In this document: one piece after another, positions 7,046-63,150 of the stretch | How the letters are laid out: every line of letters starts with the position of its first letter | Numbering within the stretch: the stretch's first letter is position 1 | From: Neoarius graeffei | Taxonomy: Eukaryota; Chordata; Actinopteri; Siluriformes; Ariidae | Assembly (NCBI RefSeq): GCF_027579695.1 | Contig: NC_083577.1 | Coordinates: forward strand, 36,301,698-36,365,697 | Direction: 5' to 3' | DNA length: 64,000 nt | Position numbers and translations under genes: made by a program | The notes under the pieces: model-generated | What the model was told of the DNA's origin: nothing | The model's input: the letters and a program-made list of their open reading frames with translations, nothing else | The model's database searches: none

Positions 7046-8050
7046 ATGGAGGAGCTAACAGTGCTAGCCAGGAGTCAAAGGGAGTTTGAAGAATGTAGCA
7101 TCATGTATTTTATGGAATCATGGTTACACCAGGATATCCCCAATTGCAATGTTTCTATCGAGGGCTTTCAGACTGTGCGGCCAGACAGAGACAACATTGA
7201 GAGCAATAAGCAGAAAGAAGGGGGACTTCTGTTCTTATAACAGATGGTGCAAACCTGGTCACATTATGACCAAAGAACGGATTTGTTGCCCGGACATTGA
7301 ACTGTTAGCTGTAGGGCTCTGTCCATATTACTTACCCAAGGAAATGTCTCATGCTATCGTTATGGCTGTCTATGTCCCACCATCAGCCAACCTAACATTG
7401 ACATATGTGACCCACATGGATAGGACATTGATGAGCTCAGTGAGTGCATTACAGATTACATCAACTTCTGTGTGGGCTGCATTGTCCCAGAAAGGGCTGT
7501 CATTTTTTATTCAAATAGCAAGCCATGGGTAAAAATAGACATAACATTCACAATGCCAAAAAGAGAGCTTTTAGAGCTGGCTTTTAGATGAGTTGAGGAC
7601 TATCCAATTGGAGCTGAAAGTGAAGATCAGGGAGGCTAAGGAGAAGTACAAGAGGAAACTTGAGCAGAAACTCCAGCAGAATAACATGAAAGAGTTATGG
7701 AGTGGCATAAAGACAGTCACTGGTTTCAGACTGACGGGTGGCAGAGTGCCTGAGGGTAGTGTGGATAGGGCCAATGAATTAAATCTGTTTTTCAATATAT
7801 TTGATTTGGTGTCCACTGCCCATCCCCCCAACCCATCTATTGTCTGCACCATCAAGTCCACCATCAACACCTCCACCCCTCGCCCGACTTTCTAATGGCT
7901 CACCATTGTCAAGTGATGGCCTTCCCCTCCCCTCTTCCCCTCCCCTCACTGCCCTGGACAAACTGACACCACCACTTCTCCCACACCTGAAACCTCCATA
8001 ATGAGTTTCACTGCTGGCCAGGTGAAAAGACAGCTGAAGCATCTCCACTG
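7046..8050 (+). pseudogene. LINE ORF2 fragment: endonuclease and pre-RT region
   Basis: Frames at 7046-7240 and 7086-7532 together read like the AP-endonuclease of L2-type LINEs (ESWLHQDIPNC, then VMAVYVPPSAN). 7593-7895 reads like the charged pre-RT region (KVKIREAKEKYKRKLEQKLQQ). Frame jumps and stops break it, and no RT motif follows. The pre-RT part also occurs on the minus strand at 24288-24660. Confidence 0.7.
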
Positions 8051-8072
8051 AATCGGGGTTGTACATAATATA

Positions 8073-9682
8073 CAGTGGTGCTTGAAAGTTTGTGAACCCT
8101 TTAGAATTTTCTATATTTCTGCATAAATATGACCTAAAACAACATCAGATTTTCACACAAGTCCTAAAAGTAGATAAAGAGAACCCAGTTAAACAAATGA
8201 GACAAAAATATTATACTTGGTCATTTATTTATTGGGGAAAATGATCCAATATTACATAGCTTTAAGTGGCAAAAGTATGTGAACCTCTAGGATTAGCAGT
8301 TAATTTGAAGGTGAAATTAGAGTCAGGTGTTTTCAATCAATGGGATGACAATTAGGTGTGAGTGGGCACCCTGTTTTATTTAAAGAACAGGGCTCTATCA
8401 AAGTCTGATCTTCACAACACATGTTTGTGGAAGTGTATCATGGCACAAACAAAGGAGATTTCTGAGGACCTCAGAAAAAGCGTTGTTGATGCTCATCAGG
8501 CTGGAAAAGGTTACAAAACCATCTCTAAAGAGTTTGGACTCCACCAATCCACAGTCAGACAGATTGTGTACAAATGGAGGAAATTCAAGACCATTGTTAC
8601 CCTCCCCAGGAGTGGTCAACCAACAAAGATCACTCCAAGAGCAAGGTGTGTAATAGTCGGCAAGGTCACAAAGGACCCCAGGGTAAGTTTTAAGCAACTG
8701 AAGGCCTCTCTCACATGGGCTTATGTTAATGTTCATGAGTCCATCATCAGGAGAACACTGAACAACAATGGTGTGCATGGCAGGGTTGCAAGGAGAAAGC
8801 CACTGCTCTCCAAAAAGAACATTGCTGCTCGTCTGCAGTTTGCTAAAGATCACATGGACAAGCCAGAAGGCTATTGGAAAAATGTTTTGTGGATGGATGA
8901 GACCAAAATAGAACTTTTGGGTTTAAATGAGAAGTGTTATGTTTCGAGAAAGGAAAACACTGCATTCCAGCATAAGAACCTTGTCCCATCTGTGAAACAT
9001 GGTGGTGGTAGTATCATGGTTTGGGCCTGTTTTGCTGCATCTGGGCCAGGATGACTTGCCATCATTGATGGAACAATGAATTCTGAATTATACCAGCGAA
9101 TTCTAAAGGAAAATGTCAGGACATCTGTCCATGAACTGAATCTCAAGAGAAGGTGGGTCATGCAGCAAGACAACAACCCTAAGCACACAAGTCATTCTAC
9201 CAAAGAATGGTTAAAGAAGAATAAAGTTAATGTTTTGGAATAGCCAAGTCAAAGTCCTGACCTTAATCCAATCGAAATGCTGTGGAAGGACCTGAAGCGA
9301 GCAGTTCATGTGAGGAAACCCACCGACATCCCAGAGTTGAAGCTGTTCTGTACGGAGGAATGGGCTAAAATTCCTCCAAGCCGGTGTGCAGGACTGATCA
9401 ACAGTTACCGGAAATGTTTAGTTGCAGTTATTGCTGCACAAGGGGGTCACACCAGATACCGAAAGCAAACGTTCACATACTTTTGCCACTCACAGATATG
9501 TAATATTGGATCATTTTCCTCAATAAATAAATGACCAAGTATAATATTTTTGTCTCATTTGTTTAACTGGGTTCTCTTTATCTACTTTTAGGACTTGTGT
9601 GAAAATCTGATGATGTTTTAGGTCATATTTATGCAGAAATATAGAAAATTCTAAAGGGTTCATGAACTTTCAAGCACCACTG
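8073..9682 (+). mobile_element. Tc1/mariner element B, both ends intact
   Basis: TA (8071-8072), then CAGTGGTGCTTGAAAG at the left; CTTTCAAGCACCACTG then TA (9683-9684) at the right, giving 1610 bp. Inverted repeats of about 200 bp can be read at both ends. It is inserted in LINE copy 1, and the empty site is preserved in LINE copy 2 at 17873-17874. It belongs to the same family as elements C and D. Confidence 0.95.
8440..9534 (+). pseudogene. Tc1-like transposase, two nonsense codons and a lost stop (element B)
   Basis: The start MAQTKEISEDLRKS is followed by an intact helix-turn-helix/paired region ([16 protein letters not shown]), a GRPR-like stretch, and WMDETK (first catalytic D). The frame stops at TGA 9052-9054, where element D has a Trp codon, and again at TAG 9241-9243 inside the family's [12 protein letters not shown] motif. 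The second D (QQDNNPKHT) and the E (NPIEMLW) are present. The normal stop after GGHTRY has become CGA, extending the last frame to 9534. All are single-base changes, consistent with neutral decay. Confidence 0.88.
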
Positions 9683-9927
9683 TAACTATTCAATACCTCA
9701 CTCAATGTGCAATACTAGTGCAATAACTTCTGTGTACCATAGAAATAATTTACGACTTATATGCAATAACTGTAGTAATACCTGTGGAATAATTTTCTTT
9801 ATTCCATCCACATAGCTATGTTTCCTTCCACATGGATAGTTATGTGCAATATATATTTTTATATATTCTTCTACATATATTATTTTTATATATTATTTCA
9901 TATTTCATACATTTTACATACGTTTTA

Positions 9928-10304
9928 GGGCGGCACGGTGGTGTAGTGGTTAGCGCTGTCGCCTCACAGCAAGAAGGTCCTGGGTTCGAGCCCCGGGGCC
10001 GGCGAGGGCCTTTCTGTGCGGAGTTTGCATGTTCTCCCCGTGTCCGCGTGGGTTTCCTCCGGGTGCTCCGGTTTCTCCCACAGTCCAAAGACATGCAGGT
10101 TAGGTTAACTGGTGACTCTAAATTGACCGTAGGTGTGAATGTGAGTGTGAATGGTTGTCTGTGTCTATGTGTCAGCCCTGTGATGACCTGGCGACTTGTC
10201 CAGGGTGTACCCCGCCTTTCGCCCGTAGTCAGCTGGGATAGGCTCCAGCTTGCCTGCGACCCTGTAGAAGGATAAAGCGGCTAGAGATAATGAGATGAGA
10301 TGAG
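9928..10304 (+). mobile_element. tRNA-derived SINE (DANA/Mermaid type), full length, copy 1
   Basis: The head has box A (TGGTGTAGTGGTTAGC) and box B (GGTTCGAGCCCC). The conserved core follows (TTTGCATGTTCTCCCCGTG, GACATGCAGGTTAGGTTAAC), and the tail is (GAGAT)n. A 12-bp target duplication ACATACGTTTTA flanks it at 9916-9927 and 10305-10316. It interrupts the LINE 3' UTR. Open frames crossing it are not genes. Confidence 0.93.
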
Positions 10305-10410
10305 ACATACGTTTTACATATATGTTTCTCTACTTGAGTGTAAGCAACTGCATATGTACTCAATTTCCCCTCTGAATTATTAAAGTATTCCTGATTCTGA
10401 TTAATAAGAA

Positions 10411-13182: not shown

Positions 13183-16100
13183 ATGACTGTTGCCCATGCT
13201 GAGGTGTGTGTTTGGAATGATCCATGGCAGCAAGATTTTCGGGTCTATGGAGGACGGGTGTGTAACACACTCATGGAAGGTGAGCTTGATCTTTTATGAT
13301 ACATCTGTAGATCCAAATTCTTATTTTATTTTTTTACATGTGTTTGTGGATGGTGGGACTGGATGAGCAAGCTGAAAGTTATAGCATGTATAGGTCTGTT
13401 TTGTTATAATTGGTGCAGACCAAATGTCTTTTGGGACTTGATTCTCATTTTGGGACTTATTATACAAAAACAACAGCTTAATTTAAAAAAAAAAATGTGT
13501 GTGTGTTTAAGGTCCTTGGGCAGACAGAACTCCTCTCCATGTTGCAGCTTTGCAGGGCCGACTACTCCCACTTAAGAAGCTCCTATCTCATGTACAGAAT
13601 ATAACACACACAATGTGAAGCTCTAAATCTCAGAAAGATTTTGTCTGTTAATTCATATTACACAAGTGATGTCAATTTTGAATTCCTCTACAAGAATACT
13701 CATGTAATTAATGTATTTAACAGTGGTCCAATGTTTGTGTTTGCCCAGGGGATGCGTGCTGATGTGGTCACGCTGGATGGCATCAATCCATTACATGAGG
13801 CCTGTCTAGGGGGCCATTTTGCCTGCGCTAAACTGCTGCTGGAACATGGGGCTGATGTATGTCCTGAACTGCGTGAATATTTCCTGGTCATAAATACAAG
13901 TTGGTGTGTGTAATTTGTTATCTGTATGTGTATGTTCCCTCAGGCTAGTGCCGTGTCTGTTGATGGAATCACACCTCTCTTCAATGCATGCTTCAGTGGT
14001 AACACTGCCCTTCTCCAACTCCTCCTAAAGCATTGCTCTGTCCATCACCCAGCTCACCTGCGTAATTCACCTATCCATATTGCTGCAAAGCAAGGTATGT
14101 TTTCTCACATAACTACTTATTATTCTTGCTTCAACTATTCCATTGTTCATATTACAATACAAGGATAGGCATACAGTGTCTTGCAAAAGTATTCATTCTC
14201 CTTGGTGTTTGTCTTGTTTTGTCACATTACAAGCTGGAATTAAAATGGATTTTGGGGGGGTTAGCGCAATTTGAGTTACACAACATGCCTACCACTTTGG
14301 TGCAAATAGTTTTTTTTTTAAATTGTGACACAAACAGGAATTTCATACGAAAGGGGGTGAATACCTATACACACTCCAGACTTCTGTTTTTCATCTTAAT
14401 TATTATTTGTGTCACAATAAAACAACAATTTTCACCTTTAAAGTGGTAGGCATGTTGTGTAAATCAGATGGTGCTAACCCTCCAAAAATCCATTTTAATT
14501 CCAGTTTATAATGCGACAAAACAGAACAAACACAAAGGGAGATGGATACTTTTGCAAGACACTGTATAACAGTGTGACCTTTGTATTATGTGGGTGAAGG
14601 TCTGTTTTAAGATGGGACATCAAAATTTTGACATTCCAGCGAGCAATACTCTAAGCCCATGTTTACATTAGACCGTATCAGCGGATCATCAGATTAACGT
14701 TTTTAAAACGATTAGTACCAATACGTGGATACGCTCGGCTCCGCAGGCATCCCGCGCTCCAAATCACTCCGCCCTGAACAGCGAGTGCCCTCTGGAGGGT
14801 GCGCACTCCGGCCCTGCGCAGCTCACAGAGCGCGCGAGTGAAGCACACTAGCAGTGTTTTCGGGACTGAGCCGCTGTGTGTGTGATCCCAGCGCATATCA
14901 CTTACCACTTGCAAGTGGAAGGATGGCAAGCCTAAAGACAATCATAACTACACAATGGGCAGTATTTGCATCAGTATTTGCAGTATTTTCATACTTTTAT
15001 ACTCTTTAATGAAAGGTGATACAAGGCGGAAGTCCGCGCCGTTTTTCAGCAGTCGCGTCACATGACCAACGCCAGCGAATCAGGAAGGTGGATGTCACAG
15101 TGACGTTGTCCAATGAGGACGCCAGCTAGAGCTCAGCACAGCGTATTCGCGTATCTCAATGTTTACACAGCACCGGACCAGATACGATCTGGATTGAATA
15201 CGTGGACGCTGGCGGATTCCCGTTTCCCGGCGTTTCCAGGCGTTTTAATGTAAACGGACAGTGCATCCGCGAAGGAAACGAGACAGATACGGTCTAATGT
15301 AAACGTAGCCTAAACTGCTGTAATCTATATTTACAGCTCAACAAGCCATATACTTGAAGGTCACTTCAAATTTACATTCCTGAAATCCTGAGACAATTAG
15401 GAAGTAAATCTTTGAACAGTTGCCAAACACAGACAGAACTGTAATTATTCTGATAAACTAATTTTCTAAGCTATTTTTAAACTAACCTGATAATATTTTT
15501 GTGACGCAAACTCTTAACCTCATTATATCACAAATAAATGACAATAAACTTACCAAAGAAAGATATATTGAGATTGTTAACTACATTATGAACATTATGA
15601 ATGCTTGTTAATACATTTGATTGTATTCTCTATGATCTAAAATATAAGTTGAAGCTGTTCCTAAATAAATATTTTATCATGAAATGTAATTGTAAAACTT
15701 TTAACAATATTGAAATACATTAGAGTATACATTACATGTTTTAGGTGCAACCACACAAACACAACTTGCAAGTCTACTAGCTGACCTTCAGTCCTGGGTC
15801 ACAGTGGAAATTTCAGTTTATTATGGAATTAAAGACACTAAAAAGTTAATTTAAGTGTTTGATTATGTTTCAGGTCACACAGCTTGTGTGGAGTTGCTAT
15901 TTTCTTATGGGCTGGATGCTGATATGGAGTTGGATGCAGTAGGCACACCACTTTATTGTGCGTGTGAAACCAAGAGCACGGAGTGTGTACAGAGGCTTCT
16001 GATCTTGGGTCAGTATACACACACCCACATTTATTCACACACATCCATACACAGGTACAGATTCTTAGGACTCTGGGAGCACATTCACAAAAAAAAAAAT

Positions 16101-19100
16101 CCTTCTTTTGGGTTTTACAGCAGTTGACATACAGTGTTGCATTACTGCCATCTACAGGTTTATCTTTGACCGTGCTCTGACAGTTACATCATTCTGTCAC
16201 TAAACAAACAGCTAATCATACCGAGATGCTTGCTGACTGCCGATATTTATTAGTTTGGTCCTGCGTTTCCTTTCCTTTGCAACATAATGTCCTTTCTTCT
16301 CACTTTCCGTTACTGTAGTCGGTCTTTCACATTTCATTCGCACACTCACATCCTCCATTTTTCTCTCCTGTTTCAAATTTGTATCCCACAATGCCTTGTG
16401 CGAACGGGGAAAATCTACCACGTGATGCATGATGTAGTGTCTTGAATTGGGTCATGGTGAAGCAGGAAAAAATAGCAGAGAATTTAGAGCCACATGGCCC
16501 TAAATTCATTAATTGTTCTATTTTAAAAAAAATAAAAAAAAAAACTAATGAAATTGGAAGTCTTTGATTTGAATTCAGTAGCTTTCGGTCCATTAAACAA
16601 AAATAACTGGGTGTTGGGGAAACTTCTTTTTATGACATACACTTGAAAAATCTGAAAGGCAGTATAGCTTTAAACAACATTGCTTAATCTTCATGCATTT
16701 TCTTCAAACAATTTTGAATATGTTTAAAGCTTTAAAGTGTTTTGAGTGATAATGCAGTTGGAATTTGATTGATTAATTTATTTTAATACAGATTTATCCA
16801 GGATTATTCTGTATGAAACTGTTTCTATACAAATGAAATAACTGAGCAATGCATTTTGAGGCGAAGATGTGATGATTAAACAAACACACTGAGTTCGGTG
16901 TTAAAATGGAAGCTACTGTGACAATCATACATATCCATACATCCACTATCTGTAGCCGCTTATCCTGTACAGGGTCGCAGGCAAGCTGGAGCCTACCCCA
17001 GCTGACTATGGGCGAGAGGCAGGGTACAATGTGACTATCTCTGTGCAATACTTTATATGTGCAATACCTCACTCCATAATGTGTAACACAACACATACAC
17101 CTCAGACTGTGCACCTTACACCCCCCCTTTTTTTCCCTCCCCCCTCATCTCTCTCTCCCTCTCTACATGCTGTTTGCACTGTTATTGGAGATGCTTTAAT
17201 CTCATTGTACATGTGTATAGTGACAATAAAGGCATTCTATTCTATTCTATTCTATTCTATTCTATTCTATTCTATTCTATTCTACATCCTGGACAAGTCG
17301 CCAGGTCATCGCAGGGCAACACATTCAACCATTCACATTCACACCTATGGTCAATTTAGAGCCACCAATTAGCCTAACCTGCATGTCTTTGGACTGTGGG
17401 GGAAACCGGAGCACCCAGAGGAAACCCACACAGACACGGGGAGAACATGCAAACTCCACACAGAAAGGCCCTCGTTGGCCGCTAGGGCTTTCTTGCTGTG
17501 AGGCGACAGTGCTAACCACTACACCACCATGCCGCCCCACTATGAGAATCAGAAATACTTTAATAATCCTGAGAGGAGATTGAGTACATCTGCAGTTGCT
17601 CACACTCAAGTGGAGAAAAGAAATTACAAAATTGAACACATATGTAAAACTTATGAAATATGTAAAAATCCATGATATATGTAAAAATATGTAATATCTA
17701 AACCATATATCACATAACTATCCACGTGGAAGGAAAAATAGCTGTGGAGATGAAATAAATAAAGTTATTGCACAGTTATTACTACAATTATTGCAGATAA
17801 GGAGTAAATAATTTCTATGGTAAATAGAAGTTATTACACTAGTATTACACATTGAGTGAGGTATTGAATAGTTATATTATGTAATTATTGAACCTAGGTA
17901 CAATGTGGATGGATGTAGTACAATGGAATTATTACACAGGTGCAGTACTGAACAGTCCATTGGGTTGAGGTCCCTGGTGGTTTAGCCTGAAGTTTATTAG
18001 CCCCATCCTCAAGTGTTTTAGCCCCATCTTCTTGGTTTAGCGGGCTATATAATTTCTGATCCGTAACTCTAAAAACTGATAAATTAATGTTATTGGTGTC
18101 TTAGAAGGCAAAATTATGATCAAATTTAGTTTAATTCAATGATGGGGCTAAAACACCTGAAGATGGGGCTAATACACTAGGGGCTAAACCACCATAAGCC
18201 ATCCATTCTCTGTTGAATATCAGAGCCTCTGAGGGAGAGGTTGAAAAGTTTGATGGCCATGGGTAGGAATGATCTCCTGTGGTGCATTTTGGGGGAATGA
18301 GTCTTTCACTGAAAGTACTCCTTTGATTAGCCAGCATGTTATGGAGTGAGTGGGAGACACTGTCCAGGATGATATGAAGTTTAGCCAGCATCCTCCTCTC
18401 GGACACTGTCTCCAGAGTCCAGCTCTACTCCCACAAAGTCACTGGCCTTGCGGATCAGTTTATTGAGTCTGTTGGCATTTGTTGCCCTCAGTCTGCTACC
18501 CGAGCACACCACAGCATACAGGAGAGCACCGGCCACCACAGACTCAAAAAGCATCCTCAGCATAATCCTGCAAATGTTGAAGGACCTCAGCTTTCTCAGA
18601 AAGTAGAAACGGTTTTGGCCCTTCTTGTATATGGTAACTGTATTTTTAGTCCAGTCCATTCTATTGTCAATATGTACTTGCAGTCCTTTACAATGTCCAC
18701 ACTGACCCCATGGATGAAAATGGGGGTCATTGATGCCTTGTTGCATCTCATGTCCACCACCAGTTCTTTGGTTTTGTTCACATTGAGCTGCAGATGGTTC
18801 CACTCACACCATGAAACAAAGTAGACAAAGTTTTGCAATCAGCCTCATCATCCTTACTTATATGTCCAACTATAGCAGAGTCATCAGAGTACTTCTGAAG
18901 ATGGCAGGATTCTGTCTTATAGTTGAAGTCTGTGGTGTAGAGGGTGTACAGAAAGGAAGAGAGGACTGTCTCCTGTGGTGCCCCAGTATTGATGACCACC
19001 TTATCTGACATGGTGTTGTAAGCATACATACTGTGGCCAGCACATGGGGGGGGGCTCTACATTCATCAGCTTCTCACCAAGACACTGTGGCATGGTATCT

Positions 19101-22100
19101 TTGGCACTGGGATAAGGCATGATATCTTCCACATCATGGGGACTTTCTGAAGTCTTAGGCTGATGTTGAAGACATGATGCAGCACTCCACATAGCTGGGG
19201 GGCACAGGCTGTGAGCACCCTGGGGCTGACACCATCAGGACCAGCAGCCTTGCATGAGTGGAGATGCTTCAGCTGTCTTCTTACCTGGTTAGTAGACAGA
19301 AAACTCATTATGGAGGTTTCATGTGGGGGATGGGTGTTGGTGTCAGTTTGTTTGTCCAGGACAGTTGCTCCAAAAGACGGGGGGGGGGGATGCTGTCACT
19401 TGACAAAGGTGAACCATTAGAGCAGGGGTGGGGAACCTTTTTCCTATTAAGGGCCATTTCGAGTTTTATAACATCCTATGGAGGCCAAACTAAATTTTTT
19501 TAACCCATAACCACTGCTGAAAATTTTAAGATGCAGCCCATTTATTTTAGCTTTCTTTCATGCTATTCAAATGAAAAAGCAACTTTATTGGTGTAACTTT
19601 GTTTTATTCGTTTTTAATCTGCCCATTTTCTTTTTAAATTTTATCCACCTCTTATTGTTTTAATGCTCTGTTTTTAGTCATGTTCTTATTGATTTTATAC
19701 AGTGGTGCTTGAAAGTTTGTGAACCCTTTAGAATTTTCTATATTTCTGCATAAATATGACCTAAAACATCATCAGATTTTCACACAAATTCTAAAAGTAG
19801 ATAAAAAGAACCCAGTTAAATAAATCTCATCTCATCTCATCTCATTATCTCTAGCCGCTTTATCCTGTTCTACAGGGTCGCAGGCAAGCTGGAGCCTATC
19901 CCAGCTGACTACGGGCGAAAGGCGGGGTACACCCTGGACAAGTCGCCAGGTCATCACAGGGCCGACACACAGACACAGACAACCATTCACACTCACGGTC
20001 AATTTAGAGTCACCAGTTAACCTAACCTGCATGTCTTTGGACTGTGGGGGAAACCAGAGCACCCGGAGGAAACCCACGTGGACATGGGGAGGACATGCAA
20101 ACTCCGCACAGAAAGGCCCTCGCCGGCCAGTTAAATAAATGAGAAAAAAATATGCTTGGTCATTTATTTATTGAGGAAAATGATCCAATATTACATATCT
20201 GTGAGTGGCAAAAGTATGTGAACCTTTGCTTTCAGTATCTGGTGTGACCCCCTTGTGCAGCAATAACTGCAACTAAACTTTTCCGGTAACTGTTGATCAG
20301 TCCTGCACACTGGCTTGGAGGAATTTTAGCCCATTCCTCCATACAGTACAGCTTCAACTCTGGGATGTTGGTGGGTTTCCTCACATGAACTGCTCGCTTC
20401 AGGTCCTTCCACAATATTTCGATTGGATTAAGGTCAGGACTTTGACTTGGCCATTCCAAAACATTAATTTTATTCTTCTTTAACCATTCTTTGGTAGAAC
20501 AACTTGTGTGCTTAGGGTCATTGTCTTGCTGCATGACCCACCTTCTCTTAAGATTCAGTTCATGGACAGATGTCCTGACATTTTCCTTTAGAACTCGCTG
20601 GTATAATTCAGAATTCATTGTTCCATCAATGATGGCAAGCCGTCCTGGCCCAGATGCAGCAAAACAGGCCCAAACCATGATACTACCACCACCATGTTTC
20701 ACAGATGGGATAAGGTTCTTATGCTGGAATGTAGTGTTTTCCTTTCTCCAAACATAATGCTTCTCATTTAAACCCAAAATTTCTATTTTGGTCTTGTCTG
20801 TCCACAAAACATTTTTCCAATAGCCTTCTGGCTTGTCCACATGATCTTTAGCAAACTGCAGACGAGCAGCAATGTTCTTTTTGGAGAACAGTGGCTTTCT
20901 CCTTGCAACCCTGCCATGCACACCATTGTTGTTCAGTGTTCTCCTGATGGTGGACTCATGAACATTAACCTTAGCCAATGTGAGAGAGGCCTTCAGTTGC
21001 TTAAAACTTCCCCTGGGGTCCTTTGTGACCTTGCCAACTATTACACGCCTTGCTCTTGGAATGATGTTTGTTGGTCGACCACGCCTGGGGAGGGTAACAA
21101 TGGTCTTGAATTTCTTCCATTTGTACACAATCTGTCTGACTATGGATTGGTGGAGTCCAAACTCTTTAGAGATGGTTTTGTAACCTTTGTTTATGCCATG
21201 ATACACTTCCATTCATGCCATGATACATTTCCACAAACATGTGTTGTGAAGATCAGACTTTGATAGATCCCTGTTCTTTAAATAAAACAGGGTGCCCACT
21301 CACACCTGATTATCATCCCATTGATTGAAAACTGTTAGGGCTGGTGGAGGTATGGTGAAGTTAGGATCCAAAAACAGAACGCAGACAGTAATCCAATAAA
21401 TAAGATGATTTAATACAGGGAAGAAAGGGTGTGGCAAAAGATGAACAAACAGGATGAAAAACAAATAGCAAAAATAGTCAGGACAAAATGAGAACAAACA
21501 ACTTGCCAAAACATGAGACAGGCAAAGAAAAATGCTAGCGCAAAAAAACATAAACAAGAAAAGACCCTTAGTGCAAAAACCATGAACCAGAAATTACCCT
21601 TAGTGCAAAAAAAAAGAACCATAAATAACCCTTTGTGCAAAAAAACAAAAACCAAAAAAATGCTAGTGCAAAAACCATGGACAAGAGAAAATAGCTAGAG
21701 AGGAAAACCATGAGGAGCAAGAGAGGCACAGAAACGGTTAGAGAAGCAAACAAGACGTTCTGGCAAAAACAGTCTGAGAATGGCCTTTAAATAAGCAGCA
21801 GTGAAAACCAGGAAGTGAGTACAGGGGAGAAGGAATTCCTGTCCCGGATCCGGATCGGCGCCGGCGTGAGAGATCTGTAATCTCCGGAGTGGATGTCTGA
21901 GGCGGAGCATAACAGTACCCCCCCCCCCCCCAACGAGCGCCTCCAGGCGCTTTAGGAAGAGCGTTGGGGTGTTGCCGGTGGAAGTCAGAGATGAGGGTTG
22001 GGTCCAAGATGAACCTGGCGGGGACCCAACTTCTCTCCTCGGGACCATAACCTTCCCAGTCCACCACGTACTGGAGTCCTCTGCCTCGCCACCGCACCTT

Positions 22101-25100
22101 CAGCAGTTTCTTGACCGTGTAGGCCTCACCGCCATCGATGAACCTGGGAAGAGGAGGGGGTTTGGAGGATGGGAGCAAAGAACTAGAGACCAGAGGTTTA
22201 AGCTGTGACATGTGGAATGTGGGGTGGATGCGTTGCATGGTGAGTGGTAGTGCCAGTTTGACGGAACATGGGTTGATTACCTTTTTGATGAGGAAGGGTC
22301 CTAGGTACCTGGGATCCAGCTTGCGGGAGACGGTTCTGAGTGGCAGATGGCATGTGGAGAACATGACTCGTTGCCCCACCCGGTAAGTGGGCGCCTTAGA
22401 GCGGCGTTTGTCACCCTGCCTCTTGGATGCTAGGGCAGAGTGAATGAGTTTTCTCCGGGCCAATGCCCATGTCCTCCTGCAGCGGCATGTGAAGGTCTGG
22501 GCTGAGGGTATGGTGACCTCCTTCTCTTGGTTGGGGAAGAGTGGTGGTTGGTAACTTAGGGAGCACTGAAAGGGTGAGAGACCTGTGGCAGATGAAGGAA
22601 GAGTGTTATGAGCGTACTCAATCCAGGGTAGGTACTTACTCCAAGAACTGGCATCCCTGGATGCCATGCACCTGAGTGCAACCTCCCAAGCCTGGTTTGC
22701 CCGTTCTGCCTGGCCGTTGGTCTGTGGGTGGAAGCCTGAGGTGAGACTACAGATGGCCCCGATGAGTTTGCAGAAGGCCCTCCAGAACTGTGCAGTGAAC
22801 TGAGGGCCCCGGTCAGAAACGATGTCAGTGGGTAGTCCATGTAAGCGGAAGACGTGGTGGATGAGTAATTCTGCAGTTTCTTTGGCTGAGGGGAGCTTGG
22901 GCAGAGGAATGAAATGGATGGTCTTGGAGAAACAGTCAATGACAGTGAGGATGCATGTGTTGCCACCTGAGTTGAGGAGTCCTGTGACAAAGTCCAGGGC
23001 TATCTGAGACCAAGGTTGATGTGGAGTCGGGAGGGGTCTTAGCAAGCTGGCAGGGGGTCGATTGGTTGTCTTGTTCCAGGAGCACGTGTCGTAGGCTACC
23101 ACAAACTTCTGAATGTCCTCCTTGATGGATGGCCACCAAAAACGCTGCTGGATGAGTGCCAGGGTTCGGGCGGCTCCCGGATGACAGGCCAGCTTGGAGC
23201 CATGACTCCACTGCAGCACCTAGGTTTGCACAGGACAGGGAACAAACAGATGGTTAGGAGGAATGTTGTTGGGGTTACCTTCACCGGGGTCCTGCTCCAG
23301 GGCCTTCTGCATGAGCGTCTCAACCTCTAGAATGGCGGCTCCCACCAGGCAGCATGGAGGAAGGATGGTCTCGGGTGGCTTAGACTCCTCTTGGTGGGAA
23401 GAAAACATCCTGGACAGGGCATTGGGTTTGCCGTTCTTGAAGCCTGGGCGGTAGGAGAGTGTGAAGTTGAACTGGGAGAAACCCTGAGGAGCAAGAGAGG
23501 CACAGAAACGGCTAGAGAAGCAAATGAGACATTCTGGCAAAAGCAGAGTCTGAGAATGGCCTTTAAATAAGCAGCAGTGAAAACCAGGAAGTGAGTACAG
23601 GGGAGAAGGAATTCCTGTCCCGGATCCGGATCAGTGCTGGTGTGAGAGATCTGTAATCTCCGGAGTGGATGTCCGGGGCAGAGTATGACAAAAACATCTG
23701 ACTTTAATTTCACCTTCAAATTAACTGCTAATTCTAGAGGTTCACATACTTTTGCCACTCACAGCTATGTAATATACTCCGCCGAAGAGCATTAATTTTA
23801 TCCACACGCACTTGTTCTTTCAGCTCGTCCAGCTTGGCGTGTTTGGTGCTGTAATGAAGCTCCAGATTAGCCTTTTTTATCACTGCAAGGGCATCCCCAC
23901 AAACTAAGCAAACTGGCTTGCTTTTTACTTCTACAAAAAAAAATTGTTTGTCCATTTTTCTTGATAAGCATGACATTCCACATCTACCTTTCCCTTCTTC
24001 ATACTCACCATGGTGCGTTTTGGTGAAATCGTTAAACAGTCTGTTTATGCCCGCTAAATGACGTGACGTGACCGCACATGACCATGCTCTGCTTGTGTGG
24101 GGTTCAGGACCCTGACCTTGGCCTGGAAAGATAACCACTCGCCTATTTTATTAATTGTGGTCTGATTTTTCCTGATTTAATTTTTTTTGTGTGTGTTTGA
24201 GTAATTATGAATCATCTTGTGGGCCGGATCAAATGGTCTCGCGGGCCATATACGGCCTGGAGGCTGCATTAGAGGGTCAGGTGAGGGGTGGAGGTGTTGA
24301 TGGTAGACTTGATGGTGCATCTGATCAGACAGGAGCTCAGGAATCAAAGGAGGGATGGAGTCGATGGATGGGGGGGATGGGCAGTGGACACCGAGTCAAA
24401 TCTATTGAAAAACAGATTTAATTCATTGGCCCTATCCACACTACCCCCAGCCACTCTTCTGCCCGTCAGTCTGAAGCCAGTGATTGTCTTCATACCACTC
24501 CATACCTCTCCCTGCTGGTGTTTCTGCTCAAGTTTCCTCCTGTACTTCTTAGCCTCCCTGAACTTCACTTTCAGCTCTCGCTGCATAGTCCTTAACTTCT
24601 CCCTATTACCAGTTCTAAAAGCCCTCTTTTTGGCATGTTTGAATGCTCTTTATGTCTATTGTTACCCATAGCTTGTTATTTGAATAAAAAAATGACAGTT
24701 ATCTTATGCAATTATGTGTGGTATTCCATTATTACAGTCTGCAATATTGACTTATTGTATTGTATCCTACTGACTTAGGTGCTAATGTGCAGTGTGGGCA
24801 TGGCCTTGATACACCACTGCACGCTGCAGTTCGAGTGGGTGGAGCCAAGGAGGTGGCACTGTTGCTTGAACATGGGGCTGATGGGAAATGTAGAAATTCA
24901 GAAGGCAAGACACCTCTGGACCTGGCTACAGATAAGCACATCCAGCATCTACTGCTGACAGCAGGCAAGAGAATACACACAAAAACATGTTTATAGTAGC
25001 AGTAAATAGTAAAGCTATATTACTAAAACAGTCTAAATTATCATCTGTGCCTTGTGTTGTAGGTCCACAGTCTCTGTCACAGTTGAGCCGGTTGTGCATT

Positions 25101-25187
25101 CGTCGTTCTTTGGGCCAAAAAAGACTGAACAGAGCCAAAGTTCTCCAAATACCACACATTCTACAGGCTTATATTCTGTATCAATAA
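13183..25187 (+). CDS. asb9: Ankyrin repeat and SOCS box protein 9-like, complete, seven exons
   Basis: ASB proteins use ankyrin repeats to hold a substrate and a SOCS box to recruit elongin B/C-Cul5-Rbx2 for ubiquitination. Exons are 13183-13279, 13512-13591, 13749-13856, 13944-14094, 15874-16008, 24779-24964 and 25063-25187; phases agree throughout and the product is 293 residues (human ASB9 is 294). The start ATG has A at -3. The N-terminus [19 protein letters not shown] resembles ASB9 and lacks the membrane segment of ASB11/ASB5. About six ankyrin repeats follow: residues 34-60 ([10 protein letters not shown]), 61-95 ([10 protein letters not shown]), 96-128 ([10 protein letters not shown]), 129-160 ([10 protein letters not shown]), 161-193 (TPLYCAC) and 194-250 (TPLHAAV). 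The SOCS box spans about 253-293. In it, the BC-box reads SLSQLSRLC, with Ser where the family has the elongin-contacting Cys. Intron 6 has a GC donor. Intron 5 is 8.8 kb of nested transposons. ASB11 is the main alternative. Confidence 0.85.
14174..14564. mobile_element. Tc1-derived MITE, long-arm hairpin, in asb9 intron 4
   Basis: TA then CAGTGTCTTGCAAAAGTA at the left, and TACTTTTGCAAGACACTG then TA (14565-14566) at the right. The arms are inverted copies of each other for about 190 bases, nearly meeting in the middle. The ends match Tc1-E at 41420-43045, so this is an internally deleted relative of that family without the transposase. Confidence 0.9.
14655..15310. mobile_element. Non-autonomous TIR element in asb9 intron 4
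   Basis: Inverted ends GTTTACATTAGACCGTATC (near 14661) and GATACGGTCTAATGTAAAC (near 15287-15305) are perfectly complementary over 19 bp. TAA flanks both ends (14652-14654; 15311-15313), which would fit a PIF/Harbinger-type 3-bp duplication, but a longer CTAA is also possible. The interior is GC-richer than its surroundings and has no coding frame. Confidence 0.7.
15311..15873. other. asb9 intron 4 remainder, no element recognised
   Basis: AT-rich intron sequence ending in TTATGTTTCAG, the acceptor of exon 5. No repeat ends were found. Confidence 0.6.
16009..16926. other. asb9 intron 5, 5' part, no element recognised
   Basis: From the donor GGGTCAGT to the first SINE. Short A-rich runs occur near 16090 and 16530. 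No termini or coding remnants are recognised. Confidence 0.5.
16940..17537 (-). mobile_element. tRNA-derived SINE copy 2, split by a LINE 3' end
   Basis: SINE sequence (minus) is at 16940-17031 (tail side, with ATCCATCC-type repeats) and resumes at 17287-17537 (core and head, ending GGCGGCATGGTGG when read on the minus strand). The interruption 17032-17286 is a foreign LINE end. It is an older, divergent copy. Confidence 0.82.
17032..17286 (+). mobile_element. 5'-truncated LINE 3' end with (ATTCT)n tail
   Basis: The insert ends in TGACAATAAAGG followed by about nine ATTCT units, a typical LINE 3' tail. It interrupts the SINE between GGGTACA and CCTGGACAAG. The same tail occurs on the minus strand at 58754-58838. 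Confidence 0.75.
17976..18193. repeat. Foldback repeat inside the LINE 3' region
   Basis: The left arm GGTGGTTTAGCC...TATTAGCCCCATC...TGTTTTAGCCCCATC returns inverted at the right, ending GGGGCTAAACCACC. The arms are about 50 bp, imperfect, around an AT-rich loop of about 110 bp. It contains no coding sequence, and it breaks the C-terminal RT remnant. Confidence 0.7.
18200..19420 (-). pseudogene. LINE reverse transcriptase remnant
   Basis: Minus-strand frames between 19308 and 18131 give the RT fingers ([11 protein letters not shown]), palm ([23 protein letters not shown], from an ancestral FADD-like core) and thumb ([26 protein letters not shown]). Several frame changes show that it is dead. 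Confidence 0.8.
19826..20126 (-). mobile_element. tRNA-derived SINE copy 3, 5'-truncated, inside Tc1-C
   Basis: The (CTCAT)n tail starts at 19826 and the copy ends at CCTCGCCGG, so the tRNA-like head is missing. A 14-bp duplication CCAGTTAAATAAAT is at 19812-19825 and 20127-20140. The flanking Tc1 terminal sequence joins cleanly across it. Confidence 0.93.
20232..21212 (-). pseudogene. Tc1-like transposase, long open frame with DDE residues kept but N-terminus deleted (element C)
   Basis: A 326-residue open frame, the best preserved transposase here. It has [16 protein letters not shown] (helix-turn-helix), [14 protein letters not shown] (first D), [25 protein letters not shown] (second D) and [11 protein letters not shown] (E), ending GGHTRY and stop. 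Relative to element B it lacks about 18 residues at the start (the EISEDLRKS...AGK segment), and the frame now begins in a duplicated 5' UTR segment (MEVYHGIN). DNA binding is probably lost, and the surrounding element has lost one terminus and gained two insertions, so it is treated as a pseudogene. A catalytic-domain protein could still be encoded. Confidence 0.85.
21333..21912 (-). repeat. Gypsy 3' LTR, complete
   Basis: 580 bp from TGTTAGGG to GAGCATAACA. It contains several imperfect internal repeats of a TTAGTGCAAAAACCATG-like unit between about 21530 and 21680. Its last ~210 bp match 23478-23690. Confidence 0.88.
21915..23460 (-). pseudogene. Gypsy pol remnant: RNase H end, integrase, chromodomain
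   Basis: From 23460 down, the minus strand gives the RNase H tail ([17 protein letters not shown]), then an in-frame TAG at 23220-23222. A long frame follows with the integrase zinc finger, the core ([28 protein letters not shown], giving D, D and E), and a C-terminal chromodomain ([21 protein letters not shown]). The HHCC finger is damaged: [11 protein letters not shown] has Tyr where the first Cys is expected. The frame runs on into the LTR. It is non-functional as read. Confidence 0.9.
23478..23690 (-). repeat. Gypsy 5' LTR, truncated
   Basis: Matches the last ~210 bp of the complete LTR with roughly 15 differences by eye. The deletion junction at about 23478 falls directly against the RNase H coding remnant. 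Confidence 0.85.
23780..24095 (-). pseudogene. hAT transposase N-terminal zinc-finger fragment
   Basis: Minus-strand frame with [21 protein letters not shown] followed by [16 protein letters not shown], a C-x2-C...H-x4-H finger of the type found at the start of hAT transposases. The frame then runs into Tc1-C at about 23774. No catalytic core is present. Confidence 0.75.
24965..25062 (+). other. GC-AG intron (asb9 intron 6)
   Basis: The only consistent junction is CAG|GCAAGA at 24964/24965, with acceptor TTGTGTTGTAG. A GT donor that keeps the frame was not found. AG|GCAAG is the known strong context for the GC-AG class. The intron is 98 nt. Confidence 0.8.
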
Positions 25188-25600
25188 CATACACAGACAC
25201 ACAGATTTCATGTTTACTGCACCATCTACACAGATTATACAACTACACATAGACAAGTCTTTAGGAACTAGCTTTCTGAATATGGAAATATTTTTGTTGT
25301 CACTAAATTCTTTGTGTTCAACTAATACAGGTTTGTTAATTTAATTTGAAAAAAAAAATCCTTTTATTATTATTATTAGTTGGGGCCAAGTAGTGAAGCT
25401 GCCTCGGCACCCAATGTGTTTCTCCCTTGTATTCATCATCATCATCTTCTTCTTCTTCTTCTTCTGGCTGGAGTGTCTATAGCAGCTAATATAACTGCAT
25501 GGTAAAAAAGTTTTGAAATGCAGACTGAGGACAGTCCCCTGATTCTTTTCACCAAGTTTCATGTTTGTGTCTTGAGTGCTGTAATGACGTCAATGGGTCA
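25188..25600. other. asb9 3' flank
   Basis: Probable 3' UTR. No AATAAA was seen in the first 300 bases after the stop. A (CTT)n-like run and an (ATT)n run occur near 25360-25465. Confidence 0.45.
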
Positions 25601-27120
25601 AAGTTGGAGGTGCGTTTATGCATGTAACTTTTGAACCATATGCCGGATTTCAAAACTGAGGTACCATGGCTCAAGCTGAGTTCCTGGCTCAAGCTGAGTT
25701 CTAGCTAAAACCCATGATGCCAATTTCCATCATATTGCATTTTTGCAATATTGGATTTTATGAAAAAGTTTTAAAAGCTTCACAGGCCACAAATTTTGTG
25801 TAATTTTAAGCAAAATCGCAACAGGTGATCTTTATATGAAGCCTCATAAATATTATGATACAGATTTTTTTTCTTCAAAAGCTGTTCATTACCAAATTGG
25901 TGGCGAAGCCATCAAACAGGAAGTGAGGTCATATCTCAGCAATTGTTTGATATGTCAACACAGAGTCAGTACCCCTTCATTAGGACATGAAAAAAAAACT
26001 TGAGTCATTTGACCACCAGGGGGCTTAATAAGTAAAACACATTTTGTTAAAAAAAACTATGTGTTTGCCTTACAAAAGTATAAAGTGTTGCCAGGCAAAA
26101 CAAACCTCACCCAGTTGCATTTACGATGAATATGAAGGAAGATATCGCGAAAAAAATAGCTACCCTATGGGGCTACTGCTTATAAATAAAATTGTTTTCT
26201 GATACCATGTCCATACAGTAAATATAGCATATATATATAGCCACAAAAATGAAGCGTAATCCAAAAAATGAACAATTTAAAAATCACAGAAGTAAAATAT
26301 ACCAAGTGTCTGTACTTTATATTATTCTACTCTTACTTCTTACAATTTTTGAAACTGAAACCGCCGAACTGAGGCTGACATACACACGCTGTCACCATGA
26401 CCCAAACTCTTATTTCCCGGAAATGGCCCGGCGCTAGAGCTCAGTGGAACGCACTTTCCCTCTGTAATAAGCATAAACATGTCTGAAAGCAATTTCTTTA
26501 GTCTAGTTCATTTATTTCGAATGGTGAACTGAATTGTATACACTCACCGGCCATTTTAATTGGAACACGTGTATGCGCATGTGCAGTGTGTGACTGTTAC
26601 ACTCTTACATTCTTACAGCACGACGACATAGTGGCTAGCGCCTCTACTGTATATGAGGCAATAGACACAACAAAAATGATTTTGACCTTTTTGGTGACCT
26701 TGACTGGATGCCCCTCAAAATGTTAGAGGTTCTATTTGAGACCAATGCCCATCTATCCTGAAAGTTTCTTTAAGATTGATCCAGTTGTTTTAACGTAATA
26801 AAAAAACCTGACTGGAAACAATACCTCAAACCCCCCCAGTGGACTCCATCCTGGGCGAGGTAATTATTGTTGTGGTTGTATCTTGGGAGATCCCAAGGCA
26901 TAGAAAAAGTGTTTGTCCATTACAAAGTGGTGATGATGATGATGCCACCAAACAAGAAGTGAGGTCATAACTCAGTAATGCTTTGATGTATCAAAACCAC
27001 TGATCTCTACGTAAAATATCTGGATGGATCATTGGCTCATCAAAGTGAAGCCATCTGGCCGCCATATTACCATGCACATCAAATCAATACAGTCATATCT
27101 CTGCCTGGGAAGCTACACAA
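25600..27120. repeat. Old dispersed repeat family, two or more degenerate copies
   Basis: 25870-26040 and 26930-27120 share sequence such as AAGTGAGGTCATA(A/T)CTCAG. Related stretches lie at 29085-29260 (minus) and 29705-30110, where the order CTTCA(C/G)...GGCCACAAA...GATCTT...AAGCCTCAT also recurs. Ends and class are unknown. A single Tc1-type terminus (ACACTCACCGGCC) is at about 26540. Confidence 0.55.
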
Positions 27121-38609: not shown

Positions 38610-40170
38610 CAGTGGTACTTGAAAGTTTGCAAACCCTTTAGAATTTTCTATATTTCTGCATAAATATGACCTAAAACATCATCAGATTTTCACACAAGTC
38701 CTAAAAGTAGATAAAGAGAGCCCAGTTAAACAAATGAGACAAAAATATTACACTTAGTCATGTATTTATTAAGCAAAATGATCCAATATTACATATCTGT
38801 GAGTGACAAAAGTATGTGAACCTCTAGGATTAGCAGTTAATTTGAAGGTGAAATTAGAGTCAGGTGTTTTCAATCAATGGGATGACAAGCAGGTGTGAGT
38901 GGGCACCCTGTTTTATTTAAAGAACAGGGATCTATCAAAGTCTGATCTTCACAACACATGTTTGTGGAAGTGTATTATGGCATGAACAAAGGAGATTCCT
39001 GAGGACCTCAGAAAAAGCATTGTTGATGCTCATCAGGCTGGAAAAGGCTACAAAACCATCTCTAAAGAGTCTGGACTGCACCAATCCACAGTCAGACAGA
39101 CTGCATACAAATGGAAGAAATTCAAGACCATTGTTACCCTCCCCAGGAGTGGTCGACCAACAAAGATCACTCCAAGAGCAAGGTGTGTAATAGTCAGCGA
39201 GGTCACAAAGGACCCCAGGGTAACTTCTAAGCAACTGAAGGCCCCTCTCACATTGGCTAATGTTAATGTTCATGAGTCCACCATCAGGAGAACACTGAAC
39301 AACAATGGTGTGCATGGCAGGGTTGCAAGGAGAAAGCCACTGCTCTCCAAAAAGAACATTGCTGCTCATCTGCAGTTTGCTAAAGATCATGAGGACAAGT
39401 CAGAAGGCTATTGGAAAAATGTTTTGTGGACAGATGAGACCAAAATAGAACTTTTTGGTTTAAATGAGAAGTGTTATGTTTGGAGAAAGGAAAACACTCC
39501 ATTCCAGCATAAGAACCTTATCCCATCTGTGAAACGTGGTGGTAGTATCGTGGTTTGGGCCTGTTTTGCTGCATCTGGGCCAGGATGGCTTGCCATCATT
39601 GATGGAACAATGAATTCTAAAGGAAAATGTCAGGACATCTGTCCATGAACTGAATCTTAAGAGAAGGTGGGTCATGCAGCAAGACAACAACCCTAAGCAC
39701 ACAAGTCATTCTACCAAAGAATGGTTAAAGAAGAATAAAGTTAATGTTTTGGAATGGCCAAGTCAAAGTCCTGATCTTAATCCAATCGAAATGTGGAAGG
39801 ACCTGAAGAGAGCAGTTCATGTGAGTAAACCCACCAACATCCCAGAGTTGAAGCTGTTCTGTACAGAGGAATGGGCTAACATTCCTCCAAGCCGGTGTGC
39901 AGGACTGATTAACAGTTACTGGAAACGTTTAGTTGCAGTTATTGCTGCACAAGGGGGTCACACCAGATACTGAAAGCAAAGGTTCACAAACTTTTGCCAC
40001 TCACAGATACGTAATATTGGATCGTTTTCCTCAATAAATAAATGACCGAGTATAATATTTTTGTCTCATTTGTTTAACTGGGTTCTCTTTATCTACTTTT
40101 AGGACTTGTGTGAAAATCTGATGCAGAAATATAGAAAATTCTAAAAGGTTCAAACTTTCAAGCACCACTG
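38610..40170 (+). mobile_element. Tc1/mariner element D, both ends intact
   Basis: TA (38608-38609), then CAGTGGTACTTGAAAG at the left; CTTTCAAGCACCACTG then TA (40171-40172) at the right; 1561 bp. It is the same family as B and C. The right terminal repeat has lost about 20 bp compared with B (the GATGTTTTAGGTCATATTTAT part). Confidence 0.95.
38979..39973 (+). pseudogene. Tc1-like transposase, broken (element D)
   Basis: The start codon is followed after one codon by TGA (ATGGCATGA at 38979). The body otherwise reads through the HTH ([16 protein letters not shown]), WTDETKIELFG (first D), QQDNNPKHTS (second D) and PDLNPIE (E). A deletion around 39619, where the ELYQR segment is missing, shifts the frame, and one codon is lost after NPIEM. 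It is dead. Confidence 0.88.
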
Positions 40171-45887: not shown

Positions 45888-48627
45888 TTAACACAAGGCT
45901 TGACTAAACAGGTATGTTTTCAGCCTAGACTTAAATGCTGAGACTGTGTCTGATTCCCGAACACTACTTGGAAGGCTGTTCCATAACTGTGGGGCTTTGT
46001 AAGAAAAGGCTCTGCCCCCTGATGAAGCCTTCACTATACGAGGTACCAGCAGATAGCCTGCACCTTTTGATCTAAGTAGGCGTAGCGGGTCATAGAGGAC
46101 CAGAAGTTCACTCAGGTACTGTAGTGCGAGACCATTCAGTGCTTTAAAGGCCAATAGTAGTATTTTATAATCAGTACGAAATTTGACTGGGAGCCAATGC
46201 AGTGTGGATAAGACAGGGGTGATGTGGTCATATTTTCTAGTTCAAGTAAGGACTCTTGCTGCTGCATTTTGAACTAACTGGAGCTTGTTTATGCACTTAT
46301 TGGAACATCCAGACAGTAAGGCATTACAATAATCCAACCTGGAGGTAATGAAAGCATGAACTAGTTTTTCCGTGTCATATAGTGACATTAAATTTCTTAT
46401 CTTGGCAATATTTCTGAGATGAAAGAAAGCTATCCGAGTAACATTATTAATGTGAGTTTCAAATGAAAGACTGGGGTCAATAATCACTCCGAGGTCTTTT
46501 ACTGCTGCACGCAAAGAAACAGAAAGGCCATCCAGAGTTACTGTGTAATCAGAAAACTTACTTCTAGCTGTATGTGGTCCTAATATAAGTACTTCAGTCT
46601 TGTCAGAGTTAAGCAGAAGGAAGTTAATAAGCACCCAGTGTCTAATGTACTTCACACATTCCTCAATTCTATTAAGCTGGTGTCTGGTTTTGCAGAAACA
46701 TGCAACTGTGTGTCATCAGCATAACAGTGGAAACTAATACAATGTTTACGAATAATATCACCCAGAGGTAACATATATAAAGAAAAAAGCAGTGGACCCA
46801 AGACAGAACCTTGTGGAACACCAAACTTTACTTCAGTATGTCTAGAAAAATCACCATTTACATCAACATACTGATAGCGATCAGTTAAATAAGACCTGAG
46901 CCAGGAGAGGGCCATTCCCTTAACTCCCACAACGTTTTCTAGTCTATCCAGAAGAATGGAATGATCAATGGTATCAAATGCTGCACTAAGGTCAAGCAAC
47001 ACAAGCAGCGAGACACAGTCCTGATCAGACGCCAACAGTAGGTCGTTTACTACTTTAACCAGAGCTGTCTCTGTGCTATGATGAGGTCTAAATCCTGACT
47101 GATACATTTCATGGATGTTATTCCTATGTAAATATGAGCATAACTGCTGTGCCACAGCTTTTTCAAGGATCTTGGAGATAAAGGGGAGGTTTGATATTGG
47201 CCGATAATTGGACAGCTGACAGGGATCAAGGTCAGGTTTTTTAATCAGGGGTTTGATAACTGCTAGTTTAAAGGATTTGGGTACATAGCCAATCCTAAGA
47301 GAAGAATTTATTATTTTTAGAAGCGGTTCAATTACTTCAGGTATTATCTGTTTGAATAGACGTGTAGGTAAGGGATCTAGTACACAAGTTGAGGCTTTTG
47401 ATGCCGAGATTAATGAAAGTAATTCAATTTTTCTAAGGGGAGTAAAACATTCTAATTGCTGATCTGATACAGTTATATTGTTAACTACAGGGTCACTTAC
47501 ATTGTCTGACCTTAAATTAGTAGTTTGAATTTTTTGTTGGATATTCTCAATTTTGTCATTAAAAATGTCATGAAGTTGTTGCTACTACATACTGCAGGTG
47601 TGCATGTGTCTATAGTGGACTTATTCCTGGTTAATTTTGCTACAGTATTAAATAGGAACCTAGGATTATTTTTGTTATCTTCTATTAGGGAGGAGAGATA
47701 TGTTGATCTAGCAGTACTAAGAGCTTTTCTATACATCAAGAAGCTCTCCTTCCACGCTAATTTGAACGCTACCAATTTTGTTTGATGCCATTTACATTCC
47801 ATTTTTCGAGTGGTCTGTTTTAAAGTGCGAGTGTCATCATTATACTAGGGTGCTAATTTTTTGTCTCTGACCATTTTCGTTTTAAGAGGAGCTACATTAT
47901 CTAAAGTATGGCGGAACGTTGACTCTAAGCATTCAGTTGCCTGATCAAGTTCTGCAGGGACTGACAGTGACCCAGTCAAAGTTGAGAACTCTGGGAGATC
48001 ATTTATAAAGCTCTGTGCAGTAGTTGACGTGAATGTATGTTTAATACAGTAGCGTGGTGAGGTGCATATATTTTTACTCAGACATATTTTGAATGAGATG
48101 AGATAATGATCTGAGATAACTTCAGACTGTGGAAGTGTGACTATATTTTCTACGTTTAACCCGAATGTTAGTATTAGATCAAGAGTGTGACCACCATTAT
48201 TGGTCAGTCCTGTGACATTCTAATTAATCCCTACTGAATCTAAAATGGACGCAAACACTGTTTTCAAAGGGTTTTCTGGGTTATCCAAGTGAATATTAAA
48301 ATCTCCAACAACTAAAGCTTTGTCTAAGGAAATAACCAGATCTGAGATAAAATCTGCAAATTCAGAAAGAAACTCAGAATATGGCCCCGGGGGCCTGTGA
48401 ATAATAAGTAACGGAATTAACTGGGTAGACCTATTTTTCGAGGCTACATACATTATATGAGTATGAAGAACTTCAAATGTATTAAATCGATAACTAGGTC
48501 TGTGTGTTACACCTAGATAATCATTATAAATATCCGCGACGCCTCCTCCTCTGCCAGTTAGACGAGGCTGGTGTATATAACTGTATCCAGGAGGACTCGC
48601 TTCATTTAATGCTATATATTCATTTGG
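45888..48627 (-). pseudogene. LINE ORF2 remnant: endonuclease, RT, C-terminal domain
   Basis: Minus-strand pieces are: endonuclease end (ALVVGDFNIHLDNP at about 48330), pre-RT linker (about 47800-47510), and RT at 47155-46655 ([51 protein letters not shown]). A frameshift at about 46655 leads into NSDKTEVLILGP and LDYCNALLSG, then WNSLPSSVR at the C-terminus (46154-45888). The YADD core is intact, but multiple breaks make it inactive. Confidence 0.88.
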
Positions 48628-50236: not shown

Positions 50237-50591
50237 GATGAAAGGATTAATGTACCTTAATCGAAGATGTGTTGATATTAAAGCAGATCCGATGTGGATG
50301 GCCTCCGCTTGTGGTCTTTACACAGGAGGAGAAAAAAAAGAAAGCTTCAGGTCTCTGCGTTCTTCCAAAAAAAGAGAGAGGGGAAAAAAAAGGTCAGAGG
50401 AAAGTGGCCAGATTGGTTCGAGCTGCCAGGAGGGATATAACAACTCATATAATCATTCTTTACAACTGTGGTGAGCAGAAAAGCATCTCAGCATGCAACA
50501 GCAGAAGATCACATTGGGTTCCACTCCTGCAGCCAAGAGCAAGAATCTTAGAATCAACAACAGGTTCCTATTAAAGTGGCTGGGGAGTGTA

Positions 50592-56090: not shown

Positions 56091-63150
<7,060 letters not shown>

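Follow-up and report, generated by a model that had tools for sequence, protein, structure and literature searches.

Nested mobile elements in intron 5 of an asb9-like gene of Neoarius graeffei and what their junctions tell of their order

Intron 5 of an asb9-like gene in Neoarius graeffei (contig NC_083577.1, positions 36,301,698 to 36,365,697, a stretch of 64,000 nucleotides called the window below) holds mobile elements that lie one inside the other, and the question it raises is whether the order of their arrival can be read from their junctions. An initial annotation held that it can: a long interspersed nuclear element (LINE copy 2) contains a hAT element, the hAT contains a Tc1 element (Tc1-C), and Tc1-C contains both a head-truncated short interspersed nuclear element (SINE) and a Gypsy element, so that the nesting dates the insertions. 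Judged on the sequence, the containment LINE > hAT > Tc1-C > {SINE, Gypsy} is right. We consider it highly probable that the locus was built by insertions layered in this way in intron 5 and was then altered by later deletions. By this account a 5'-truncated LINE would have landed in the intron antisense to the gene, a hAT would then have entered LINE copy 2, a Tc1 element would have come to sit in the hAT, and the Tc1 would then have received a SINE through target-primed insertion as well as a Ty3/Gypsy element with a chromodomain. The nest can be regarded as decaying intronic mobile DNA, and no function is needed to explain it.

The region 16500-26500 was compared with the whole window for uninterrupted relatives, and the window itself supplied the natural empty site of three of the guests. 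The hAT has the 8-bp duplication CATTAGAG on both sides, and LINE copy 1 (7497-10401, opposite strand) aligns through its stretch 7497-8049 with the LINE sequence to the left and right of the hAT, the two alignments sharing 7 bases that are part of CATTAGAG. The SINE lies between two copies of the 14-bp CCAGTTAAATAAAT; Tc1-A and Tc1-B, two relatives of Tc1-C in the window, are uninterrupted there and match Tc1-C on both sides with a 14-base overlap. That the SINE is head-truncated is seen from other copies in the window, which have the head. Likewise, both AAAAC copies of the 5-bp duplication around the Gypsy element are present, and Tc1-A and Tc1-B run through this site and match Tc1-C on both sides with a 5-base overlap. 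These three insertions are as the initial annotation had described them, down to the lengths of the duplications.

The edges were examined by rejoin tests, in which the guest was removed, the flanks of 60 and 60 bases were joined, and the joint at the true edge was ranked among 11 offsets by alignment to the relatives in the window. Five such tests were made: hAT in LINE copy 1, SINE in Tc1-A and in Tc1-B, and Gypsy in Tc1-A and in Tc1-B. The exact edge was top-scoring among the 11 offsets in all five, and in four of them none of the 200 random partners used as a control in each test reached the true score. Among 200,000 random draws of two places from the region, 281 had 5 bases in common, 44 had 8 and 23 had 14; identical positions were allowed in these draws and make up about 22 of each figure by estimate. 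These results also bear on the possibility that the junctions are repeat-collapse artefacts of a chimeric assembly. All of the elements are repeated and the analysis was made on the assembly, so a misassembly is conceivable, but three guests with exact target duplications of the length proper to their class, at sites that are empty in independent copies, would not be expected of a chimera, and we find this explanation scarcely credible.

It had further been claimed that each host reads through once its guest is removed. The hosts of the hAT, the SINE and the Gypsy element do rejoin and align, but the hAT does not rejoin across Tc1-C; at that junction sequence has been lost from the two elements alike. 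Of the claim that the Tc1 entered the hAT at a TA, the containment and the left TA are borne out, whereas the read-through and the right TA are not. The left end of Tc1-C is an exact Tc1 terminus following the TA, and the ends of Tc1-A and Tc1-B, four in all, are of the same form. The right terminal inverted repeat (TIR) keeps 38 of about 211 bp, and Tc1-A and Tc1-B each continue for 176 bp beyond the point at which it stops. All four TIRs of these two relatives can be traced for about 200 bases, past this stop point, that on the right of Tc1-B with an internal gap. No right-hand TA can be claimed for Tc1-C because the right TIR runs into hAT sequence after 38 bp, and a comparison of 23776-24266 with Tc1-A and Tc1-B gave no match with an E value of up to 0.1. 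The two halves of the hAT cannot be rejoined because most of the transposase is missing and because the right end does not carry the TIR of the left end.

A single later deletion, running from within the right TIR of Tc1-C into the hAT, would explain the losses in both elements. Along with 176 bp of the right TIR it would have removed the right TA and the larger part of the hAT body, although the hAT may have been shortened already before this deletion. A separate small loss would have removed the right terminal repeat of the hAT; the right edge reads CTGCATTAGAG (the element ends ...GGAGGCTG), and this loss may possibly have occurred between two CTGCA copies. Another explanation of the damaged junction is that the Tc1 piece is repair filler from an incompletely repaired hAT excision gap and not a Tc1 insertion. 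This would fit with the right-hand truncation of Tc1-C and the absence of the hAT body at the same point, but filler would have no reason to start exactly at the Tc1 terminus after TA, like the four ends of Tc1-A and Tc1-B, and we hold it to be very improbable. A third explanation is that the hAT carried Tc1-C before it reached the LINE and that the shared loss at the junction came from incomplete gap repair after transposition. This is doubtful in our view; if it were true, the nesting depth would record assembly elsewhere and not the local landing order.

This leads to the claim that the nesting dates the insertions. A host copy is older than any guest that entered it, and to that extent the claim stands, but it is slightly too strong since hAT and Tc1 hosts, moving by cut and paste, could carry guests with them. 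Such movement of both is described in PMC7599744, and because of it the Tc1 may already have been in the hAT when the hAT reached the LINE. In the more general form of this alternative, the hAT received Tc1-C, perhaps with the SINE or the Gypsy element, elsewhere and took it along on a later jump into the LINE; nesting depth would then not be landing order. Nesting alone is compatible with this, given the cut-and-paste mode in the same source, and so is the intact 8-bp duplication around the whole loaded hAT. Loaded elements are, however, larger than normal and as a matter of general knowledge probably less mobile, and a second copy of the hAT was not found in the window; we consider this alternative unlikely and prefer layered insertion within the intron.

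The divergences of the elements fit with a host-before-guest order, although they cannot settle it. The terminal branch of Tc1-C is 0.044 substitutions per site (95% interval 0.031-0.057), or 0.039 without CpG sites. The two long terminal repeats (LTRs) of the Gypsy element show 15 differences in 210 sites, a divergence of 0.077 (0.040-0.117) or about 0.038 per LTR; without CpG sites these values are 0.044 and 0.022. The branch of the SINE guest, in a tree of 10 of the 13 matches including the guest (the three shorter than 250 bp were left out), is 0.018.

Several results weigh against layered insertion in the intron as we propose it. As the confidence intervals of the Tc1 and LTR values overlap, the order is not proved by these ages, and the tree support beside the SINE guest is low (0.237). 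In the rejoin test of the hAT the margin of the true edge is one point (117 against 116, span 11-105 of 120), which is narrow because the LINE copies are only about 78% identical. In the test of the SINE in Tc1-B, one of the 200 random partners reached the true score (177 against 176). This partner begins at 38726, which lies within Tc1-B at the corresponding position; when the five partners that touch Tc1-B are left out the maxima are 58, 106, 107, 124 and 124 against true scores of 117, 186, 176, 215 and 213. The right end of the hAT has no copy of the left TIR. Also, no full-length relative of the hAT was found, since the pattern search of the window gave one match, the hAT itself, and the patterns gave 0 matches in viral, bacterial and archaeal contigs, which says nothing on fish. 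Because of this the missing hAT body is deduced from general knowledge of the family.

The element in LINE copy 2 is likely a hAT, as the length of its duplication, its left terminus and a zinc finger suggest, and its membership is not established. The ends, CAGGGGTGGGGAACC on the left and CAGCCTCCAGG on the right (reverse complement), have by eye only the first CAG in common, so that matching TIRs are not seen. In the right piece the Pfam model zf-C2H2_12 (Spin-doc), which we take to be linked to hAT proteins, matches at 2.9e-08 at the start of the coding part on the minus strand. A Pfam scan of 10 peptides found this zinc-finger start alone in the right piece and no catalytic or dimerisation domains, and the left piece has stops in all six frames, so no place was found for the remaining transposase. 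Compared with solved structures, the zinc-finger piece gave weak zinc-finger matches, the best at 0.41, and these are of no help for the family. The positions of the main features are collected in Table 1.

Table 1. Positions in the window of the nested elements, their relatives and the host intron
Feature	Position	Strand	Remarks
Intron 5, asb9-like gene	16009..24778	+	8770 bp; GT at 16009, AG at 24777-24778
Exon 5, asb9-like gene	15874-16008	+	joins exon 6 in frame into ankyrin repeats
Exon 6, asb9-like gene	starts 24779	+	in frame with exon 5
SINE adjoining 3' end of LINE copy 2	16923..17537	-	split by LINE tail at about 17029-17283; from self-comparison
LINE copy 2, 5'-truncated	17538..24698	-	3' end at left; interrupted by hAT nest and hairpin element
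Hairpin (MITE-like) element in LINE copy 2	17975..18194	.	220 bp; inverted repeat with arms of 54 nt, 89% complementary
hAT left target duplication	19415..19422	.	CATTAGAG
Likely hAT with nested guests	19423..24266	-	left piece 19423-19699 with terminus CAGGGGTGGGGAACC; right piece about 23776 to 24266
hAT right target duplication	24267..24274	.	CATTAGAG
Tc1-C with guests	19700..23775	-	inverted repeat; left TIR complete (about 211 bp without SINE), TA before it (19698-19699); right TIR 38 bp
Head-truncated SINE in left TIR of Tc1-C	19826..20126	-	14-bp duplications CCAGTTAAATAAAT at 19812-19825 and 20127-20140
Deleted Ty3/Gypsy (chromodomain) element	21333..23690	-	duplications AAAAC at 21328-21332 and 23691-23695
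Gypsy 3' LTR	21333..21914	-	adjoins polypurine tract (G-run on minus strand, 21918-21931)
Gypsy 5' LTR remnant	23479..23690	-	212 bp; joined straight to other element sequence; direct repeat with 21705-21914
Damaged Tc1-C/hAT junction	23735..23790	.	Tc1 TIR stops at 23775, hAT coding sequence resumes
Tc1-A	8073-9682		in-window relative of Tc1-C; TIRs and TA on both sides
Tc1-B	38610-40170		in-window relative of Tc1-C; TIRs and TA on both sides

The transposase frame of Tc1-C (20232-21212) matches HTH_Tnp_Tc3_2 at 5.6e-22 and DDE_3 at 1.4e-15 in Pfam and Sleeping Beauty at 3.3e-81, and its N-terminal start is disrupted. Matching TIRs with TA on both sides, which mark a Tc1/mariner element, are found in Tc1-A and Tc1-B and not in Tc1-C. 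We take Tc1-C to be a truncated copy by descent, about 6-7% divergent from these two and of the same family, and not an intact member. A pattern search for relatives of the transposase gave 7 stretches in viral contigs and 13 in bacterial and archaeal contigs; none was confirmed, and this says nothing on fish. Tc1-like transposons of freshwater fish are described in PMC7599744, and PMC4683633 is listed on the same group; Tc1-C resembles them in its long TIRs, TA target and Sleeping Beauty-like transposase and differs from them in the loss of most of the right TIR and in the disrupted start of the transposase.

The SINE guest belongs to a multicopy family of short elements, and it has a target duplication and a simple-repeat tail as a SINE should. 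Beyond the guest the family has 12 further matches in the window, nine of them of at least 250 bp, and two of the short ones together make up a single split SINE. An Rfam search of 16500-26500 for a tRNA-like head yielded no tRNA match with E of 0.1 or less, the guest itself being head-truncated.

Chromodomain Ty3/Gypsy elements have an integrase zinc finger and core, a C-terminal chromodomain, LTRs that begin with TG and end with CA, and a 5-bp duplication. The present Gypsy element is like them in all of these and differs in being internally deleted with a 212-bp remnant as its 5' LTR. Its open reading frame (ORF) at 21738-23219 has Integrase_H2C2 zinc finger, rve, SH3_Tf2-1 and Chromo matches, all over the Pfam cut-offs, while the adjoining frame (23220-23630) had no Pfam match, and gag, protease and reverse transcriptase gave no match in these two frames. 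Two LTRs are found together with the 5-bp duplication. The 3' LTR reads as complete, ending at the duplication and adjoining the polypurine tract. Since reverse transcription yields two full LTRs, the internal deletion most likely came after insertion, and this second deletion would have taken most of the 5' LTR and the coding region that follows.

The pieces of LINE copy 2 at 17542-17618, 17635-17874, 19257-19421 and 24267-24698 match LINE copy 1, and the 3' end is common to both copies. The reverse transcriptase gave a weak RVT_1 match (0.027, under the Pfam cut-off). Another LINE frame matches ALKBH8_N at 9.9e-10, over its cut-off; this is presumably a model that matches LINE proteins too. 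The frame 7068-7532, which adjoins the 5' part of LINE copy 1, had no Pfam match. LINE copy 1 is itself a nest: it holds Tc1-A, at a TA whose counterpart in LINE copy 2 is empty, and also a SINE between two copies of ACATACGTTTTA.

The hairpin element, which is like a miniature inverted-repeat transposable element (MITE), has no target duplication of 4-12 bases within 6 bases of its edges, and 17900-19256 has no relative elsewhere in the window. Four Rfam microRNA matches on both strands at 17977-18192 were rejected: all are far under the gathering scores and fall within the hairpin element, whose inverted repeat they most likely reflect. The split SINE beside LINE copy 2 has an imperfect 14-bp duplication with 11 of 14 matches, a value reached in 78 of 20,000 shuffles. 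The LINE tail that splits it ends in (ATTCT)n, and the window has another tail like it at 58752-58839 (97% over 88 bases).

With the split SINE, its LINE tail and the hairpin element the cluster is larger than the four layers first described. Their start at 17538 is indeed that of LINE copy 2, but LINE copy 2 runs past the right end given for them (24670). The entire cluster, 16923-24698, is 7776 bp or 89% of the 8770-bp intron and leaves 80 bases before exon 6; the suggestion that the nest explains the long intron is therefore upheld, for most of its length is mobile DNA. By our own reading six of the seven elements with a readable direction (LINE copy 2, hAT, Tc1-C, Gypsy and both SINEs) are antisense to the gene, the exception being the LINE tail, a count too small for testing strand bias.

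The gene itself, on the plus strand, is an ankyrin/SOCS-box gene by its Ank and SOCS_box matches in Pfam. Among the 60 of 344 matches listed for the joined exon 5-6 peptide, human ASB9 (5.4e-31) stands slightly above ASB11 (4e-29), and ten other chains, natural or designed ankyrin proteins, outscore ASB9. The name asb9 seems reasonable on this short stretch.

Nesting has been observed across eukaryotes, and REANNOTATE formalises order from containment with LTR ages as bounds for host and guest, as set out in PMC2672092. The present nest resembles the clusters resolved by REANNOTATE or TEnest in its containment order and in LTR age as a bound, and it differs in being one locus read by hand with empty sites taken from the same window and not from a repeat library. 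It is a fresh example of a familiar, ordinary pattern. Among the paper titles listed none concerned this locus, and we make no claim on what is in print. The nest is a clean case for teaching how insertions are dated relative to one another by nesting, with its empty sites lying within the same 64 kb, and it also shows two limits of the method, namely, that deletions can erase junctions and that cut-and-paste guests need not land in nesting order.

Some further features were noticed in the window. By eye, intron 4 of the gene has an element with inverted ends (TTTACATTAGACCGTATC...) at 14656-15315 and a second one at about 14175-14570. From the reading frame only, exon 6 apparently ends at 24964 with a donor GC and not GT (24960-24970). 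The stretches 46242-47581 and 49334-50317 hold a second type of LINE, whose reverse transcriptase is matched well (1.3e-29), and near it an ORF with a GDSL-lipase domain.

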